From NCBI GenBank assembly GCA_017447305.1, contig JAFSNY010000039.1:1-57329 (forward strand): a DNA stretch of 57,329 bases. Reading direction: 5' to 3'. The DNA is from Bacilli bacterium. Its GTDB lineage: Bacteria > Bacillota_I > Bacilli_A > RFN20 > CAG-826. Under the pieces are notes generated by a model. That model was not told the origin of the DNA and ran no database searches. It worked only from the letters and a program-made list of their open reading frames with translations. Position numbers and translations under genes: made by a program. Below, in pieces: positions 2,890-15,970 of the stretch (its first letter is position 1; each line of letters opens with the position of its first letter).

Positions 2890-4272
2890 ATGATTAGAAA
2901 GAATTACAAAGTTTTTATTGCATATCATGGAACCTATAGTGAAAAAGGTTCAAAACAAGACGCTGAAGATTTAAGAAAATATCTTCTTAATCATGGTTTT
3001 AGTGAATCAGAGATTTTCTTTTTCCCTTCAAAAGAAGGTGGCGCCTATAAGGCCAATGTCATCGACGCATTATCAAGTCAGACTTTCATTCTTGTTTATA
3101 ATGAGAATTTAAAGCTTGAAGATAATGGAATAATCGATCACAAAGAGCATTATGAATTATGCACTGAAATCGATGCTTTTTATGCGCTGACACAGTTAGG
3201 GAATGATGTCGGTCAAAACGACGCGAAAGCGTTATATGTTGGCAACATGGACATCCACCATCGAGGAGACGAAAGCCTTCTCCATCCTTTGTTTAAAGAT
3301 ATTGCTCAATCCGCTACATCAAAAGAAGACAAAGAAACAGCTTTTGAAGGAATTCTTAAATGGATAAATATCCGTCTATCAACACAAGAAAAAGATGATA
3401 ATAACAATCAAATTAGAAATATAGAATTTTTCGATGATAATATCGAAGAAAGAAGAAGATTAGAAAGACAACAAAAATTTTTATTAAAATTTGATGCTTC
3501 TACCTATGATTATCATTTAAAAGACATGAAAAATATCAACATCCTTGATTTAGGTTGCTCTAATGGTAGAGGAGTGATGGAAAGACTTGGTAAAAGAGAA
3601 GGATTATATAATAGATTAATTGGTATCGATTCGAGTGCTTCTAGTATCGATGAGGCTCGCTATTACTACGATAATAAAAATATTTCTTTTTATGTTGTTG
3701 ACGTGGAAAGTGAAGATTTTTTACCTAAGATGCATGGAATAATGAAACAAGAAGGAATCGATGGTTTCGACTTTATTAACTGTCAATCCTTATTACTTCA
3801 TTTAAAGAATCCTTTTAACGTTTTAAAATCTGTTCGTTCGTTGATGAATGATGGAGGAATTATCTTTATTTTAGATGTTGATGATGGCTTGACATTAGCC
3901 TATCCAGATAACGATCATTTAATATCTCATCTATTTGATATTGATTATCAACTTCCTACTACTGGTAACCGTCACTGCGGTCGAACAATCCCTGGTCTTC
4001 TATCTCTTGCTGGATATAAAAATATAGTATTAGAAAAAGCAGGAATTAATACTTGTTCTTTAACTCACGAAGAAAGAGAAACGCTTTTCCGTTTTAATTA
4101 TGATTTCATTAAAGCGGGTTTAGAAAAAACCATTAAAAAAGATCCTGATAATAAAGAAATGCAAAATCATCTTAAATGGGTGATTAAAATGGGTGATGAA
4201 ATGGAAAAACGCTTTTACAGCGATTCCTTCTTCTTCACTTATGGTGATGTAATAATCACTGCAAAAAAATAA
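2890..4272 (+). CDS. TIR-like domain fused to a class I SAM-dependent methyltransferase
   Basis: Two domains are visible in 460 residues. Residues 6-140 look TIR/SEFIR-like: a first strand KVFIAYHG, a helix followed by a second strand EIFFFPS, a third strand TFILVYNEN, and an acidic residue in YELCTEIDAF (Glu93) at the place where active TIR NADases carry the catalytic glutamate. Residues 213-460 are a Rossmann-fold methyltransferase: motif I ILDLGCSNGRG (218-228), the ribose-binding acid in LIGIDSS (Asp247), a third acidic strand YVVDVES and a post-motif strand GGIIFILDVDD. A charged linker of about 50 residues joins them. The ribosome site AAGGTG precedes the ATG at 2890. TIR domains consume or cyclise NAD in bacterial defence and signalling; the methyltransferase substrate is unknown. 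The domain calls rest on motifs seen by eye. Confidence 0.7.
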   Translation: MIRKNYKVFIAYHGTYSEKGSKQDAEDLRKYLLNHGFSESEIFFFPSKEGGAYKANVIDALSSQTFILVYNENLKLEDNGIIDHKEHYELCTEIDAFYALTQLGNDVGQNDAKALYVGNMDIHHRGDESLLHPLFKDIAQSATSKEDKETAFEGILKWINIRLSTQEKDDNNNQIRNIEFFDDNIEERRRLERQQKFLLKFDASTYDYHLKDMKNINILDLGCSNGRGVMERLGKREGLYNRLIGIDSSASSIDEARYYYDNKNISFYVVDVESEDFLPKMHGIMKQEGIDGFDFINCQSLLLHLKNPFNVLKSVRSLMNDGGIIFILDVDDGLTLAYPDNDHLISHLFDIDYQLPTTGNRHCGRTIPGLLSLAGYKNIVLEKAGINTCSLTHEERETLFRFNYDFIKAGLEKTIKKDPDNKEMQNHLKWVIKMGDEMEKRFYSDSFFFTYGDVIITAKK

Positions 4273-4291: not shown

Positions 4292-4501
4292 TTATAGGTG
4301 ACGTAAACTCACTAGTGCTAACAAAACGAAATCAATACCACCGTCGCCACTTTTAGACGTCACCTCAACTTCAGACAATCCAATCGATTCTAAAAATGGC
4401 TTTAAAAATTCTTCGAAATCATAGCCAGTTTCAAATTGATGATAAAATTCATCAAGGATTTTGCCAAGTTCAGCTTTGCTTAATTCTTTAATTGTCCTCA
4501 T
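4292..4501 (-). pseudogene. truncated Mrr-like restriction endonuclease fragment
   Basis: The 69-residue product contains GLSEVEVTSKSGDGGIDFV, which is the first half of an Mrr-type PD-(D/E)XK nuclease core: the acidic residue of G-D-G-G-I-D is kept, but the frame then runs into unrelated residues and stops, so the second half with the Q/E-x-K catalytic pair is missing. The start ATG overlaps the TGA stop of the upstream nuclease gene by four bases (ATGA), a sign of an old operon. It converges on the TIR-methyltransferase gene, only 19 bases away. I treat it as a remnant. Confidence 0.6.
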
Positions 4502-5052
4502 TGGTTGTCACCATTATTATTTTTTTCATCTTCCATCATTTCTTTGATGGCGGGAATGGACATTAATTGCTGATAGAAGTATTCCATGTTTGCTTTAGCA
4601 TCCTTTTTGCGCTCTTCAATTATCTCATCGTATGAAATTCCTAATATTTCACACAATTCTTTTCCTGTCATTACGTGCTCAATTTCAAAGGCGTTTTTAA
4701 AGCCTTTAACGATTTCTTCTTTGTTAGTTTGATTGAAACAACAAACGTAATAATCGGATACAAATGGTATTTTGGCACCTATATGGAGGTTGAATCTCTC
4801 AAGGTGCTCTTGCTCTCCCCATGCTTTTTTAGTATCAAATGAATCGCCATCTTTTAATTCGATGATTTTGCAAACTCTTTTTTGCTGAACGACAAAAACT
4901 AATAAATCCGGTTCGTTACCATCTAATTTATATGAGCTCTTTTTAAGAATTCTCTTGGTACAGACATATGTCCCGTAAAATGCATAAGTAATACTTTCAA
5001 TTCTATATACTTTGTATATAGATAAAATAAAAAGACATCTTGATGTTAACAA
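4498..5052 (-). CDS. PD-(D/E)XK nuclease, type II restriction enzyme-like, N-terminus uncertain
   Basis: The core EPDLLVFV followed about ten residues later by IIELKDGDSFDTKKA is a good PD-(D/E)XK nuclease signature: acid, then E-x-K on the next strand. Similar ELKDGDxFDTKK strings occur in several type II restriction endonucleases. The C-terminal third is helical and ends in an acidic tail. The only in-frame start at the 5' end is TTG at 5052; the residues before about 45 (MLTSRCLFILSIYKVYRIES) do not look like a natural N-terminus, and the repeat boxes at 5053-5124 lie immediately upstream. The gene may therefore have lost its beginning to an insertion. No adjacent cognate methyltransferase is obvious. 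Function is inferred from the motif alone. Confidence 0.55.
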   Translation of the reverse strand: MLTSRCLFILSIYKVYRIESITYAFYGTYVCTKRILKKSSYKLDGNEPDLLVFVVQQKRVCKIIELKDGDSFDTKKAWGEQEHLERFNLHIGAKIPFVSDYYVCCFNQTNKEEIVKGFKNAFEIEHVMTGKELCEILGISYDEIIEERKKDAKANMEYFYQQLMSIPAIKEMMEDEKNNNGDNQ

Positions 5053-7925: not shown

Positions 7926-8527
7926 TCATAGAGAATAAATGATTTTAGAAATGATAGCTCTTAATTTATCATTATTCCCATTAACACTTTCAAAACTAGC
8001 AACATTATTCTCTTCAGCACTGATTTTAGACCAGTCAAAGCCATATCCGCTTTTAAGACCAATATATCTAATAATTCTCTTTGGGTTCTACCATTGCCTT
8101 CTCTAAAAGGATGAAGAGCATTTATATCCGCTAAAAGATTAGTGACATAGTTAATGAAATCTTCTTTCGGAATGCCTTGAAAGTAGTTATCTCTTTTTAG
8201 ATTAGCAAAAATGTCTTTAGCGTAGGATTCGATGTATTGCGGAAGGCAAAACAAATTACCCTTTGCAATCGCAACAGTCCTTACCTTACCTGCCCAAAAG
8301 AATAAATCTTGAAACAAATAAAAATGAATCGCTTTCAAGTGCTCAAAATCTAGGTTGCCATCTATTGGTTTATTCAATAATTCGGATTGTCTCAAGCCAC
8401 TATAAAAACGTTCGACCTTATAAAAGGTTTCCTCGTCTTGTATATTTAGTTTATTTATTAAAACATCACTGTCTTGATAACAGTAGATGCCCTTTTCGTC
8501 TAAATAAGAATATTTATATTTATCCAT
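7926..8527 (-). pseudogene. fic: Fic-domain AMP-transferase toxin with a one-base frameshift
   Basis: The uninterrupted frame (7961-8527) contains the full Fic catalytic loop HPFREGNGRTQR at residues 139-150, with the catalytic histidine, and the upstream flap region. Immediately after TQRE the frame goes wrong. The other frame continues as RYIGLKSGYGFDWSKISAEE and on to a TGA at 7926, which is exactly the normal C-terminal Fic sequence. The text GAATTATTAGA near 8068-8078 (minus-strand reading) becomes GAATTTATTAGA if one T is restored, giving a 200-residue protein of normal length. Fic enzymes of this type attach AMP to target proteins. The gene overlaps its antitoxin gene by 8 bases. It is either a recent pseudogene or a sequencing error. 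Confidence 0.85.
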
Positions 8528-9342: not shown

Positions 9343-11046
9343 CTATAATGATGGTTTTATCGAATTAACAACATCTGTATATGCTTCAGGTGTTGATTGA
9401 ATTAAGTTTCTTAAATACTCATCAAATTGATTTTTGAAAGCGGAAATACGTGGTGATTTATCAATCATATCAACAAAAGCATCTATTGACACAGGGATGA
9501 TGTTTTCATTTTGATCATCCGCATAATATCTAAAGAAGCTAGCAACTCGAGAACTAACAAATGGCGAAATAACCATGCCCATACAGTCATCGTTGCTTCT
9601 AGCTCTTTCGGTTAAATAATGTTCGCGTACTCCTGTTGTCTCTCTTGTCATCATTTCGGTTGGACTTGTTAACATAGTAGGCTCCATGATAAAAGACATA
9701 TTCAAATATCTATATATTAAATCAGCTCTTCTACTTGGGGCATGATGAAGTGGATAACCATTTTCGTTATAAATGATGTTCGAAATCAAGCCAACTTTTC
9801 CATATGATTTTCCAAGAATCAATGCCAAAACATATTCTAGTCTTAATGGTTCATCAATATCGCTATACATGGAGCGACTATTAATTCTCCCACTTAAAAT
9901 CATGAGTTCTTTTCTTAAAGAGTTAAATTCCGCTTCTTCTATCGCCTGTGTTAAAACGTTTGTATAGAATTCGTTATCTAAATATTCTTCAACAGCAATA
10001 ATATCTGAATAATCTTCTATTACAACACCAAGTTGTGAAGCTTTTCTCTTTGCAATTTCAATTCTAATATCAAGACTTTCTTGCCAAGGAAGATGGATGT
10101 TTTCTAAAAATCTATAATATTCAGTTTGATTTCTAAATTCCTTAAAGGAATAATCTTTATATTTAACTAAAATTGATTTAACTTTTTCAATGTTATATGA
10201 CGAGAAATCATACATTGTATAAGTGGATCTGCCTCTTTTTGTTAAAAGACCAGTCATTTCGAATTTTCTAAACACATCATCTGGATACTCATCAGTTATA
10301 TTATCAAATTTTCCAGGAATCAATCCGAGTTCGTTGTAGCAATAATTCTCTAGGTATTTTTGATTAATTCTAAAATTAAATTTTTTTCTATATTTAATTA
10401 TTTCTTCGGCAGCTTTTTTATAGTCACAATCTTTCATGCTAAGGACAAACGCTCCAAATTCATGTTTAGCAATCCCGGTGTTGTCTCTTCCAAGTGCTCT
10501 CCAAAGTTTATTGACTTCATCGATTACAAACAAAACATTCAAAAAAGGTCTAGCCTTATTGTAATTTGCAGGTCGAGATGGATTGTTTGCATGCATCCCT
10601 ATCATTGCTTTGCAATATACATCAGTTGAATATTCTTCATTGCCAATTAAGTCCCACCCCAATTTAGTAATTGAAATCTTATTTAAACCATGTCGGACAG
10701 GTTCGATCATTAAAAAGCCCTGATCTTTTAATGCTCTAAACTGAGTCATAACGCGTCCGTTAAGTCCACACGCTTGTGGATTATCTCGAATTAATTGCTC
10801 CACTTCCGATCCAGTTAATTCAATGCCTTCTTCCAGTTTAAAACGGACGCCTTCTTGCATTCTAGTGAATCTATATATTCCATCAGCGACAAGTCGTGTC
10901 AAATAACTATGGAAAACTTCTTCTGTAAAAATCCGCCCATCAAAGCCTTTAAAAGCAATTAGAAATTTTTCATTTCTATTAGGGTTTCTAACAGTTGTGT
11001 TGATTGAGAAAATTTTAAATCCTGGTCTATTTCCACTAGTTCCCAT
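9343..11046 (-). CDS. AlwI-like type II restriction endonuclease
   Basis: The 567-residue protein opens with KIFSINTTVRNPNRNEKFL, the N-terminal hallmark of the AlwI family (sTTvRNP-R). Near residues 415-455 it has a helical E-Y-V-L-A-L-I-L-GK-YG segment, then LHHAPSRRADLIY and FIMEP, which supply the acid (Asp442) and the E of the nuclease core (Glu455). AlwI cuts outside an asymmetric GGATC site. That two adenine/cytosine methyltransferase genes lie directly upstream in the same operon fits an asymmetric site, where each strand needs its own methylase. The ribosome site AGGAG lies 7 bases before the ATG. The recognition sequence cannot be read here; GGATC is only a guess from the family. 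Confidence 0.8.
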   Translation of the reverse strand: MGTSGNRPGFKIFSINTTVRNPNRNEKFLIAFKGFDGRIFTEEVFHSYLTRLVADGIYRFTRMQEGVRFKLEEGIELTGSEVEQLIRDNPQACGLNGRVMTQFRALKDQGFLMIEPVRHGLNKISITKLGWDLIGNEEYSTDVYCKAMIGMHANNPSRPANYNKARPFLNVLFVIDEVNKLWRALGRDNTGIAKHEFGAFVLSMKDCDYKKAAEEIIKYRKKFNFRINQKYLENYCYNELGLIPGKFDNITDEYPDDVFRKFEMTGLLTKRGRSTYTMYDFSSYNIEKVKSILVKYKDYSFKEFRNQTEYYRFLENIHLPWQESLDIRIEIAKRKASQLGVVIEDYSDIIAVEEYLDNEFYTNVLTQAIEEAEFNSLRKELMILSGRINSRSMYSDIDEPLRLEYVLALILGKSYGKVGLISNIIYNENGYPLHHAPSRRADLIYRYLNMSFIMEPTMLTSPTEMMTRETTGVREHYLTERARSNDDCMGMVISPFVSSRVASFFRYYADDQNENIIPVSIDAFVDMIDKSPRISAFKNQFDEYLRNLIQSTPEAYTDVVNSIKPSL

Positions 11047-11056
11047 ACAAAAGCTC

Positions 11057-11932
11057 CTAAAAATTTGTAATAAGCACTTCTATCGAATCTGTGATGTTAA
11101 CTTTTTGATAATTGGCGTTTCTATATTGCCTTTTAAGATAATGGATATGATATTTTTCAGCCCATTTTATAAGTTCTTCGTTTTTCTTTCCGTTGGAAAT
11201 AAATACATTTGAGAGAGCTGCTTTAATGCCTGCTTGTGATAACTTATCAAATAAAGTAAATAAATTTAAATCATCTATTTGAGACCATTCACCATTATAT
11301 GGTGCGGTTGTAACCAAGTATGGAGGATCAAAATATACAAACGAATTTTTAGTACAGCAATCATAAAGACTTCTATCTAGATAATCTTTTGTAGAAAAAA
11401 GGGCTTTATATTTCTTGCTTTCATTGCAAAATGCGATTGTTTTTTCTCTCAGCGATTTTGAAAAGTCAACCTTGCCAACAGGTACATTAAATAATCCTTT
11501 TTTGTTAAATCTTAAATAATGATTAAAGCCATATATTATAAGTGCAAAGAGTTTTTTGGTGTCTTTGTCGGAATTGTAATCCGACTTAAGCCTATCAAAT
11601 GGAGCCTTATTATATTTGGACAAACCCTCATGTTTATATTCGATGTAATGATTATCAAGATTTGTTGAATCAGTGAAACCATATTCTTCTATTATTTTAT
11701 TCATTGATTCAATAATAGATTCCCCACTATTCTCATAGAGGTATTTGATTAGTTCGATTGCATGATTGTTAATGTCGTTACAAATGATTTCTTTTGCGGA
11801 ACTATTAAACGAAACCATGCCACTACCTGCAAACGCATCAACAAAAACATCGATATCTTTTGGTATGATATCGAGTAATTCTTTTAGTGATTTTGCCTTG
11901 TTACCAGGATAATTCAACGGAGATATCGCCAT
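11057..11932 (-). CDS. D12-class (Dam-like) adenine-N6 DNA methyltransferase
   Basis: Order and motifs match the alpha class: an N-terminal YPGNKAKSL substrate loop, motif I VDAFAGSGMVSF (31-42), an Asp-rich strand IICND (49-53), and catalytic motif IV VYFDPPY (199-205). At 291 residues it is of normal length. It should modify one strand of the site cut by the neighbouring endonuclease, protecting host DNA. Its ATG lies inside the end of the other methyltransferase gene (32-base overlap), so the three genes are translated as one operon in the order methylase, methylase, nuclease. Confidence 0.9.
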   Translation of the reverse strand: MAISPLNYPGNKAKSLKELLDIIPKDIDVFVDAFAGSGMVSFNSSAKEIICNDINNHAIELIKYLYENSGESIIESMNKIIEEYGFTDSTNLDNHYIEYKHEGLSKYNKAPFDRLKSDYNSDKDTKKLFALIIYGFNHYLRFNKKGLFNVPVGKVDFSKSLREKTIAFCNESKKYKALFSTKDYLDRSLYDCCTKNSFVYFDPPYLVTTAPYNGEWSQIDDLNLFTLFDKLSQAGIKAALSNVFISNGKKNEELIKWAEKYHIHYLKRQYRNANYQKVNITDSIEVLITNF

Positions 11933-12623
11933 CTAATCTTTCCACCGATTTCCTGTAATAGTTCTCATCTATCTCAGTAGAAACAGAGTTTCTGCCTGTT
12001 AATTTGCATGCTAAAGCAGTTGTTCCAGATCCACTAAATGGGTCAAAAACAACATCATTTGGATTTGTATGAACTTTTATAATTTCTTCAATTACTTCAA
12101 CGCTTTTTTGAGTTGGGTGAATTCTTCTTTTGCCACCAAGAACAACACCACTCTCATATACTGGTTTTAAATATGATTTGTCAGATGGTTTATTAAATGT
12201 CCATCCTTTTTCGCCTTTGACTGCCCAAATTGCAACTTCAAAGTCCGTTACATATCGACTATTAACATTGCGAGGCATTGGGTTTTTCTTTTCCCACCTA
12301 ATAAGGTCTTTAATTACAAAGCCTTCTTCAACAAGTGCTTCAACAAGATAAGAAAGATTTTTCCAATCGTTGAATATGATCATACAGCCACCTTTTTTAA
12401 CGACAGGTGCACATTTTTTTATCCATTCTTTTTGGTCGAATCCATAATCCCATTGGCCATAGTTCATTCCTGATCTTCCCATGTTAGAAAAACCAAGTTG
12501 GTGAGTTCTGCTTACGCAATAAGGTGGATCAGTAATAATTGCATCAACAAAAAGATGCTTATCAACCATCTCTTTTACTGCTTTTTTATAATCACAATTA
12601 ATAAGAATTGTTTTGTTACTCAC
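11901..12623 (-). CDS. beta-class DNA methyltransferase (DPPY first, FxGxG last)
   Basis: Catalytic motif IV, IITDPPY, comes near residue 33 and the SAM-binding motif DPFSGSGTTALA near residue 204, the motif order of beta-class N6-adenine or N4-cytosine methyltransferases. HPTQKSVEVIEEII just before motif I is also typical. I chose the GTG at 12623 because the ribosome site AAGGTGG (12634-12640) lies ten bases upstream; the GTG at 12632 would be only one base from it. This is the first gene of the restriction-modification operon and diverges from the controller-like gene at 12726. Together with the D12 enzyme it fits methylation of both strands of an asymmetric site. Confidence 0.88.
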   Translation of the reverse strand: MSNKTILINCDYKKAVKEMVDKHLFVDAIITDPPYCVSRTHQLGFSNMGRSGMNYGQWDYGFDQKEWIKKCAPVVKKGGCMIIFNDWKNLSYLVEALVEEGFVIKDLIRWEKKNPMPRNVNSRYVTDFEVAIWAVKGEKGWTFNKPSDKSYLKPVYESGVVLGGKRRIHPTQKSVEVIEEIIKVHTNPNDVVFDPFSGSGTTALACKLTGRNSVSTEIDENYYRKSVERLDGDISVELSW

Positions 12624-12641
12624 ACGAATCACTCCACCTTA

Positions 12642-12665
12642 ACGTTTGGAATACTTCCCAAATGT
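12642..12665. promoter_or_regulatory. candidate operator between the methylase operon and the controller gene
   Basis: ACGTTTGG and CCAAATGT form near-perfect inverted arms (7 of 8) around an 8-base centre. The site lies in the only space between the divergent genes and just upstream of the methylase ribosome site. Controller proteins of restriction systems bind such palindromes, so this is a likely target of the product of 12726-13037. Confidence 0.45.
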
Positions 12666-12713
12666 ATATTAATTATATTTCAGGTGGGTTTTATATGCAA
12701 CGCAGATGTGTAT

Positions 12714-12719
12714 TACAAT
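12714..12719 (+). promoter_or_regulatory. possible -10 box for leaderless transcription of the controller gene
   Basis: TACAAT lies six bases before the ATG at 12726, which would place the transcript start at or next to the start codon. No ribosome site is found at the usual distance. The match at -35 (TTATAT, 17 bases upstream) is weak. Confidence 0.35.
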
Positions 12720-12725
12720 GCTCAC

Positions 12726-13037
12726 ATGAACGTATTAGAAAAAATAAAGAAAATGCAAGCGGAAAGAGGTTGGTCTACCTACAAGCTTGCATATGAATCA
12801 GGCCTAACTCAGTCAACTTTATCTAACATGTTTTCTCGTGGAACTTGTCCAACAGTAGATACTTTAGAAAAAATATGTGAAGCTTTTGGCATTTCTTTGT
12901 CTGATTTCTTTGATGACAATGACAAAGTAGCTCATGTTTCCGAAGAAGAAATGGAATTATTAAGTAAATATAGAGTGCTTACCGATAAAGAAAAAGAAGC
13001 TGTCAGATCAATGGTCACAGCTTTATCTCATAAATAA
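12726..13037 (+). CDS. XRE-family helix-turn-helix regulator, probable restriction controller
   Basis: The 103-residue product has a Cro/CI-type domain in residues 1-62: WSTYKLAYESGLTQSTLSNM contains the two HTH helices, followed by P-T-V-D-T-L-E-K-I-C-E-A-F-G-I-S-L-type dimer contacts. A short helical tail follows (TDKEKEAVRSMVTALSHK). The open frame extends upstream to 12498, but that part overlaps the methylase gene and is not protein-like, so I start at the ATG before NVLEKIKK. Being divergent from and adjacent to the restriction operon, it probably times expression of the nuclease, as C proteins do, although C proteins are usually shorter (about 80 residues). A host-like regulator is the alternative. 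Confidence 0.82.
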   Translation: MNVLEKIKKMQAERGWSTYKLAYESGLTQSTLSNMFSRGTCPTVDTLEKICEAFGISLSDFFDDNDKVAHVSEEEMELLSKYRVLTDKEKEAVRSMVTALSHK

Positions 13038-13105: not shown

Positions 13106-13168
13106 AAATCGTGTTCTAGTTAAAGTTCAAATAGTTTTCTAGTTGAAACAAATCGTGTTCTAGTTGAA
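13106..13168. repeat. three TTCTAGTT boxes spaced 21-23 bases
   Basis: TTCTAGTT starts at 13114, 13137 and 13158, the last two followed by GAA; the longer unit AAATCGTGTTCTAGTT occurs at 13106 and 13150. This is the same style of helically spaced boxes as at 1744 and 5053, with different sequence. It lies in the roughly 400-base gap after the controller gene, which holds no convincing gene. Confidence 0.5.
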
Positions 13169-13439: not shown

Positions 13440-14918
13440 TTAGTTTTGTTTGCAGACATCATCTTTCTTCAAATAATCGCTAATAAGAGGAATTCCATAA
13501 AATCTTCCTGAATACGCAAGCCTTAATTCATTGTTGGTAGAATACTTATCCAAAGCCTCTATACTTTTCTTTATGTCTTCTTCATTTTCCCAACCAAACA
13601 ATGTGTAAAAATCTTTCGAAAGAGATTTCGATTTCAAAGAGAGGGCGATTCTCTTTATAAATGACACATTGTTATCGTTGAGATAGCAATGAGATAAAGC
13701 AAACCAATAATTGCCAGTTAATGAAATAGATATATTAGTCAGCAAGCAATCGGCATCAATAAATTCATTAAAACTTAAATATTTTGCTTGGATATGCCTT
13801 CTCCAATATTCTGAAAACCCAGAATAATAGTAAGCTCCTTTTGCTTTGTCTTGATGAAGTTCCCTACCTAAATTCTCCGAGACATTGTAAAGATTGTTGT
13901 ATGTCAAGCAATAAAAAGCATCCTTAAAATACATAAGTTCTGCCGAAACAGAATAGTTACCAATACTAATATAAGGGGTATTGGTAAGATAAAAGATTGA
14001 TTGGTAGTTTTTGCTCGCTAAAAGTAGAGCTATTGTTTCTACAAACAATTCATGCAAAACGATTTTCGCTAAAGAAAAGAAAGACTGTTTAGAGGTTTTC
14101 ATCTCATTTGTGACTTTAAGTACATCAACGAAAAAACAGTGCAAAGCGTTTCCTACATCATCTTTATATTTTATTTCGGACAGAAATGCTAAATATGGGA
14201 TTTTAAAAGAATCAAAAAGGCTGTAGTTTTTTTCAAATTCTGAAGCGTTATAAAAGTCAAAATACTCAATATTCTCACTAATTTTAGTAAAACTGTCTAA
14301 AAGTTGATTAAAAGAAATAGTCAGCGCACGCTTATCACCAATCTCCTTTTTGTTTGCTTTGAATGTGTTGACAATTATCTGCGACTCTGCATTCATTGGG
14401 TTCGACTCATCAACCCATTCTGGTTTGGTTCCTAGCGGGTTTTCTATATATTTTTCATTCCCGTAAAGTGCTTTTACTAATTCAAAATAGCCTTCTTCAA
14501 AATTTGAATCTTCTGACAAATCAATCCATCTTCTTTGTTTTAGATATGTAGGAATACAAGAATCTACTTCTTCTCCTCTTTTCTCAAACAAAACAGGTAT
14601 AAATTTGGTGTTTTCAACATTCGAATATACTTCACCGGAGATGATTTGAGTTTCCTTTCCAGCTCCACCTGTTCTAGAATCAGCTTTTTTCTTGTAATCA
14701 GGAGACAACAATATCAAAACATTAGTTATCGTTGAATCGTTTACGCATTTTTCCATAAAATTATTCATATCATTGCCAAGTTTCATGTGAAATTGATCAA
14801 GAACAACATCAACTCCATCACCTCTAAGTCTCATCGCGAACTCGACAACTCTATCAATATATTTTTGATTGCTCCAACAATATGAAATAAACACTCTTGG
14901 TTTTTCTATCTTTGCCAT
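13440..14918 (-). CDS. SEFIR (TIR-like) domain protein, probable defence effector
   Basis: Residues 8-100 carry the SEFIR pattern: PRVFISYCWSN, then a helix, GDGVDVVLDQFHMKLGNDMN, NVLILLSPDYKKKADSR and GGAGKETQIISGE. SEFIR belongs to the TIR fold superfamily and appears in bacterial immune proteins. The other 390 residues are mostly helical, without a motif known to me, and probably sense or transduce a trigger. The ribosome site AAGGAG is 5 bases before the ATG. The gene lies 29 bases downstream of the unknown gene at 14948-15730, so the two are likely one operon and may act together. The catalytic activity (NAD cleavage or only assembly) cannot be decided from sequence alone. Confidence 0.75.
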   Translation of the reverse strand: MAKIEKPRVFISYCWSNQKYIDRVVEFAMRLRGDGVDVVLDQFHMKLGNDMNNFMEKCVNDSTITNVLILLSPDYKKKADSRTGGAGKETQIISGEVYSNVENTKFIPVLFEKRGEEVDSCIPTYLKQRRWIDLSEDSNFEEGYFELVKALYGNEKYIENPLGTKPEWVDESNPMNAESQIIVNTFKANKKEIGDKRALTISFNQLLDSFTKISENIEYFDFYNASEFEKNYSLFDSFKIPYLAFLSEIKYKDDVGNALHCFFVDVLKVTNEMKTSKQSFFSLAKIVLHELFVETIALLLASKNYQSIFYLTNTPYISIGNYSVSAELMYFKDAFYCLTYNNLYNVSENLGRELHQDKAKGAYYYSGFSEYWRRHIQAKYLSFNEFIDADCLLTNISISLTGNYWFALSHCYLNDNNVSFIKRIALSLKSKSLSKDFYTLFGWENEEDIKKSIEALDKYSTNNELRLAYSGRFYGIPLISDYLKKDDVCKQN

Positions 14919-15894: not shown

Positions 15895-15970
15895 TGGTTG
15901 CGGGGGAAGGACTTGAACCTACGACCTTCAGGTTATGAGCCTGATGAGCTGCCAACTGCTCTACCCCGCG
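15895..15970 (-). tRNA. initiator tRNA-fMet (CAT) with an AU/GC/GC anticodon stem
   Basis: The minus strand folds as a full cloverleaf beginning CGCGGGGTAGAGCAGTTGG with encoded CCA. Initiator features are present: C1 and A72 do not pair, and the D stem has A11:U24. The anticodon loop is CTCATAA. However, the anticodon stem is TCAGG/CCTGA, so pairs 29:41, 30:40 and 31:39 are A:U, G:C and G:C instead of the near-universal three G:C pairs. The T stem (GTAGG/CCTTC) contains a U-U mismatch. The gene follows rpsU and ends with a strong terminator; it also marks the edge of the accessory island. Confidence 0.95.

Follow-up and report, generated by a model that had tools for sequence, protein, structure and literature searches.

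The gene at positions 2890-4272 (+ strand) of the window, the whole 57,329-nt stretch of DNA analysed here, encodes a TIR domain fused to a class I methyltransferase-like module. The bacterial family to which it belongs appears to be undescribed and is strongly tied, often within the same operon, to a membrane protein carrying three transmembrane (TM) stretches and a RyR-like tail. This linkage is suggestive of a new form of TIR-based antiviral signalling. Our favoured explanation, held with a little better than even confidence, is that the fusion would be the TIR component of a defence system acting in the manner of Thoeris, with the methyltransferase-like half as the sensor, the TIR half as the source of the signal and the TM-RyR-like protein as the effector.

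The open reading frame starts with ATG, runs unbroken for 460 residues and has a plausible ribosome-binding stretch 5' of the start, and the opposite strand contains stop codons throughout. Because the same architecture is common to about 30 co-linear proteins the fusion is not a product of chance, and we conclude that it is a real, single protein, as the preliminary description had proposed. That description also knew of no characterised family with this pairing, and we likewise found no library model (Pfam, NCBIfam, PADLOC) or literature on a TIR-methyltransferase fusion, or on a TM-RyR-like partner in TIR systems, although a 2025 TIR-system preprint outside our scope might describe them.

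In searches with the window protein and with a profile of the C-terminal module (A1), 26 sampled genomes yielded homologues of the fusion, of which nearly all are 430-475 aa long with an N-terminal TIR. The hosts belong to the same class of small-genome bacteria, the named records including a Tenericutes MAG and a Christensenellaceae MAG. No fusion was found outside this class in a phylum sample of 392 genomes, nor any fusion homologue in phages and viral contigs; plasmids yielded no fusion and only two unrelated methyltransferases, and a single-protein scan of the genome contig collection with the window protein returned no relative. Two genomes of the same genus do not carry the fusion, which is consistent with an accessory gene, both assemblies being incomplete. 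A second copy is present in the genome of the window on another contig (G000:C85; L075:3187-4563, - strand), and this copy has lost its SAM motifs. Elsewhere, locus L065 (6036-10797) holds two TIR-methyltransferase genes of different TIR subtypes together with another TIR gene and a 1516-aa protein that looks DUF4062-like on sequence inspection. One close homologue, L049, is free-standing without a TIR and another, in L091, is frame-broken, so that the two halves are almost, though not strictly, always fused; these and the contig-truncated L089 aside, all members carry the TIR.

Across the family the methyltransferase-like half is constant and about five types of TIR half occur. The TIR subtype switches at least six times on a maximum-likelihood tree built from the C-terminal module, and for the SYRR type at least three changes are forced by well-supported branches; the subtypes are named by motif, and such changes possibly reflect divergence as well as exchange.

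The N-terminal half of the window protein (residues 1-166; 2890..3387), which we assign to the FIAYHGT subtype, had no direct match in Pfam, NCBIfam, PADLOC or the PDB, and a caspase match at E = 0.37 was dismissed as noise. It is nevertheless called a TIR here because of its match to its relatives: an alignment of seven sequences of this subtype (A5) was matched by hhalign to one of 15 TIR N-termini from other fusion members (A6) with a probability of 97.8 and E = 1.2e-12. All six N-termini scanned from fusion members other than the window protein passed the Pfam TIR_2 cut-off (E = 4e-9 to 9e-19), and the FIAYHGT profile also retrieved fusion members of other TIR types in a 34-sequence set, for example L074 at E = 7e-11. 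From these comparisons the window N-terminus is assigned as a divergent TIR domain. The preliminary description had called it 'TIR/SEFIR-like', of which the first label stands and the second is less apt. The bSEFIR protein of the same island (13440-14918) is likewise a defence protein of the TIR/SEFIR superfamily, but it has another domain type and another C-terminus and represents a different family. Glu93 (3166..3168), put forward earlier as the candidate catalytic residue, is invariant in all seven sequences of the subtype and lands, in the hhalign alignment, on the catalytic glutamate of TIR helix alpha-C (WVxxEI / HVLNEIE). PADLOC Thoeris/ThsB models did not match the window protein; the ThsB models match other fusion members weakly, over the TIR part. 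AlphaFold prediction of the window protein from a shallow alignment of four sequences gave a TIR half of low confidence, and that of a relative, L047, gave alternating strands and helices at the N-terminus (pLDDT about 55-86) alongside a good methyltransferase. Elsewhere the FIAYHGT subtype has different fusion partners: a STAND-like ATPase (L017/L093), the C-terminal part of a helicase-like protein (L018, L098) and further tails (L021, L099).

The C-terminal half (residues 177-460, the start being approximate; 3418..4269) matches the Pfam models Methyltransf_31 (E = 1.6e-11) and Methyltransf_23 (E = 2.7e-11). The nearest solved structure is 3MGG, a class I methyltransferase of Methanosarcina mazei (profile E = 2.9e-22 over 200 positions; fold E = 5.4e-13), which, unlike the fusion, is free-standing without a TIR and is annotated only as a methyltransferase. 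The SAM-binding motif I, LDLGCSNG (residues 219-226; 3544..3567), is intact and is followed by an acidic residue after strand 2 (IGID), and with its Pfam match and this motif the half unambiguously belongs to the class I methyltransferases. Two further motifs are specific to the family: DVDDGLTLAYPD (DVDDG...YPD; residues 329-340; 3874..3909), in which D155 and D156 are invariant, and GNRHCGR (GxR..GR; residues 359-365; 3964..3984), in which the first arginine (R185) is invariant.

Of the 32 full-length members, 26 have motif I together with the acidic motif II, and all 32 have the TIR glutamate (in L074 it was read by eye, as DDIRNEI). Both SAM motifs are lost in the remaining six (L068, L069, L071, L075, L076 and L087), which form one clade with support of 99/96. 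These six are full-length open reading frames that retain the DD pair and the first arginine of the GxR..GR motif; they span different taxonomic families and show no sign of decay. Their kept length and spread therefore indicate a module that is functional without SAM catalysis in this clade, where methylation would be dispensable. Since the TIR glutamate, the length and the distal motifs outlasted the SAM motifs, a sensing or regulatory role of the C-terminal half is probable, at least in this clade, and from this we infer recognition or regulation as the common role of the module. Most members keep the SAM motifs and methylation may matter in them. The preliminary description had proposed a defence effector using SAM to modify a small molecule or a phage component; its defence setting is borne out below, and the SAM-dependent modification is less well supported now that one clade is seen to have lost the motifs.

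Gene clustering around the fusion identified a recurrent neighbour, a protein of 626-958 aa with three N-terminal hydrophobic (TM) stretches, a Rossmann-like middle (GFGxxN) and a C-terminus of the form E-H-x-R-W-N-A...G...H-x-C-[LM]-T..GL. It is coupled to the fusion gene with a gap of -32 to +12 bp in seven loci (L074, L076, L079, L080, L081, L086 and L088), lies within three genes of it in L087 and L070 (divergently in L070) and occurs in trans, not adjacent, in many genomes. The same protein also adjoins other TIR genes (L137, L139, L066, L148), and in L093 it overlaps by 41 bp (gap -41 bp) a TIR of the window subtype fused to an ATPase domain. In the class sample it is present in 12/13 genomes with the fusion compared with 9/382 others (Fisher 1.5e-16, kinship ignored), and when the genomes that seeded the profile are left out the figures are 6/7 and 9/382 (p = 7e-9, kinship again ignored). 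The order sample gave 11/13 compared with 5/134, and among all genomes tested 23 of the 26 with the fusion had a partner match at E<=1e-10 (two weak). TM-RyR-like genes in L132, L141 and L070 lie by a ClpP-like protease gene pair and two conserved unknown genes, a recurrent operon of conflict type. Two candidates for a partner within the window were rejected: an 11-TM protein (438-1688), which bears no relation to the TM protein close to the second copy and does not recur, and a lipoprotein (2135-2854) 35 bp upstream of the fusion, not seen beside other members.

The tail of the partner recalls a class of ligand-binding domain already known from phages. Phage proteins with a RyR domain have been shown to bind TIR signals and to cleave them, and one of these proteins, RyDEP, binds 2'/3'cADPR through the ligand-contacting residues H75, W78 and H100 (PMC13232231). 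The order and spacing of E-H-x-R-W and H-x-C in the partner match these residues, as in RyR/R12-domain (PF02026) proteins. Among 25 partner sequences E, R and W are invariant and the downstream H is found in at least 90%, the first His being K in L088, L074, L142 and L143. We refer to the tail as RyR-like rather than RyR because the Pfam RyR model stayed below its cut-off (best E = 0.35, in one member; the excised region had no match) and hhalign against canonical RyR gave a probability of only 26% (E = 7e-4), with the same H..W and H residues aligned. A PDB search with the RyR-like region returned no meaningful match. RyDEP is also a small soluble enzyme, whereas the partner is a large membrane protein. 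Small proteins that match PF02026 canonically (E about 1e-34) are encoded beside TM-RyR-like genes at L134:7550-7843, L136:9332-9631 and L141:5198-5488.

The surroundings of the fusion are those of a defence locus. In the window the gene sits in a low-GC island (1-15.7 kb) ending at a tRNA-Met (15895-15970), and the restriction genes, Fic module and SEFIR gene that had been described in the island were all located: a type II REase-like gene (4498-5052), Fic (7961-8527), an AlwI-type endonuclease (9343-11046), two type II MTases (11057-12632) and the bSEFIR gene (13440-14918; PADLOC bSEFIR, E = 4e-77). An HTH gene lies at 12498-13037. By this gene and the restriction genes, three direct repeats of 19 nt, spaced about 22 bp from each other (13106-13168), resemble a controller-protein operator. 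The tRNA-Met at the island edge is a possible integration site; no integrase was identified. Across the family, 117 neighbours of fusion genes, not counting the partner, have matches to 80 PADLOC families (E<=1e-12), among them Cas9, Cas1, Cas2, AbiLi, a DRT reverse transcriptase and a restriction enzyme; for 123 control genes, drawn from arbitrary contigs of the genomes with a fusion, the number is 10 families. This contrast is only indicative because families and not genes were counted. Mapping of homologues and their neighbours, as suggested in the preliminary description, yielded about 30 relatives of the same length, defence-rich neighbourhoods and the TM-RyR-like partner.

The closest known system is type II Thoeris, in which His-ADPR made by a TIR protein drives a TM-macro effector, leading to membrane perturbation (PMC12847820). 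Here too a TIR enzyme (ThsB in Thoeris) shares an operon with a membrane protein (ThsA) with TM helices at its N-terminus and a domain of ADPR-binding type at its C-terminus. The present system differs in the methyltransferase-like module joined to its TIR and in its partner, which has three TM, Rossmann-like and RyR-like regions instead of a macro domain. No ThsA-type effector (SIR2-SLOG, TM-macro or caspase-like) was found next to the window gene. In the mechanism that we favour, the C-terminal module, as the constant regulatory part, would recognise some mark of infection or else a metabolite, SAM or a SAM-dependent state being possible candidates, and would switch on the N-terminal TIR. 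Through Glu93 the TIR would then cleave NAD+, giving rise to an ADP-ribose-type signal and/or NAD+ depletion. In most genomes the reader of this signal would be the three-TM partner, through its RyR-like C-terminus; the partner would in turn disturb the membrane, the phage being stopped by abortive infection.

A simpler possibility is that the fusion is a stand-alone abortive-infection NADase, whose TIR depletes NAD+ without a messenger or a partner and whose methyltransferase-like half only senses phage or restrains the TIR. Bacterial TIR proteins can themselves be NAD+-depleting effectors (PMC12847820), and the genome of the window, which is 92% complete in 88 contigs and has two fusion copies, contains no detectable TM-RyR-like partner, so that for the window gene itself the key link of our favoured explanation is missing. 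For the window copy this leaves three possibilities: a partner lost to an assembly gap, a different effector in its place, or action as a stand-alone NADase. For the family as a whole, the presence of the partner in all but three of the fusion genomes and the translational coupling of several of the operons argue against an NADase acting alone, and we regard it as doubtful, though it is the strongest of the alternatives.

Further down in probability is an enzyme with a tailored signal, in which an ADP-ribose species produced by the TIR (or a phage target) would receive a methyl group from the methyltransferase, the fusion so giving a methylated messenger. The fold is that of small-molecule methyltransferases, and the SAM motifs are intact in most members, the window protein included. 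The SAM-less clade is also informative in this respect, as 6/6 of its members have a group-transfer or redox enzyme of another kind coupled directly upstream of the fusion (gaps -4 to +15 bp), compared with about 1/21 of the others, where it is a flavin reductase; these counts are not independent by descent. The enzyme is a GNAT acetyltransferase in four (L068, L069, L071 and L076), double-length in three of these and translationally coupled to the SAM-less fusion gene, and an aldo-keto reductase, recognised by inspection of its sequence, in two. L076 is a three-gene operon of GNAT, TIR-pseudomethyltransferase and TM-RyR-like genes, and the second copy in the genome of the window (L075) is coupled at 2 bp to its aldo-keto reductase, the same pair recurring in a distant family (L087). 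One speculative extension is that the built-in methyltransferase, or the coupled acetyltransferase or aldo-keto reductase where the methyltransferase died, would tailor the TIR-made ADP-ribose signal such that only the cognate TM-RyR-like effector reads it, and not phage sponges or RyDEP-like enzymes. Such a replaced tailoring step would explain the upstream enzymes of the SAM-less clade, but an operon accident within one clade would do so equally, and the retention of the rest of the module in the SAM-less members argues for a non-catalytic core role. We therefore consider methylation of the signal unlikely, and its extension to the coupled enzymes slightly more so. An ordinary metabolic methyltransferase with a non-TIR N-terminal extension, to which the free-standing L049 and the frame-broken L091 might point, is largely refuted and very improbable, given that only these two homologues lack the TIR apart from the truncated L089, that the six scanned N-termini and the window N-terminus match TIR as described and that the neighbours are of defence type.

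The fusion family represents a new TIR architecture, in which the constant half is a methyltransferase fold that appears to be non-catalytic in one clade. In so compact a protein, the way in which bacterial TIRs sense infection becomes open to testing, and the analysis indicates a membrane protein with a RyR-like tail as a TIR-associated partner. Bacterial TIR operons with a RyR-like sensor would be the host-side counterpart to the phage RyR-domain proteins, and may form a parallel to the sensing of cADPR by the ryanodine receptors of animals.
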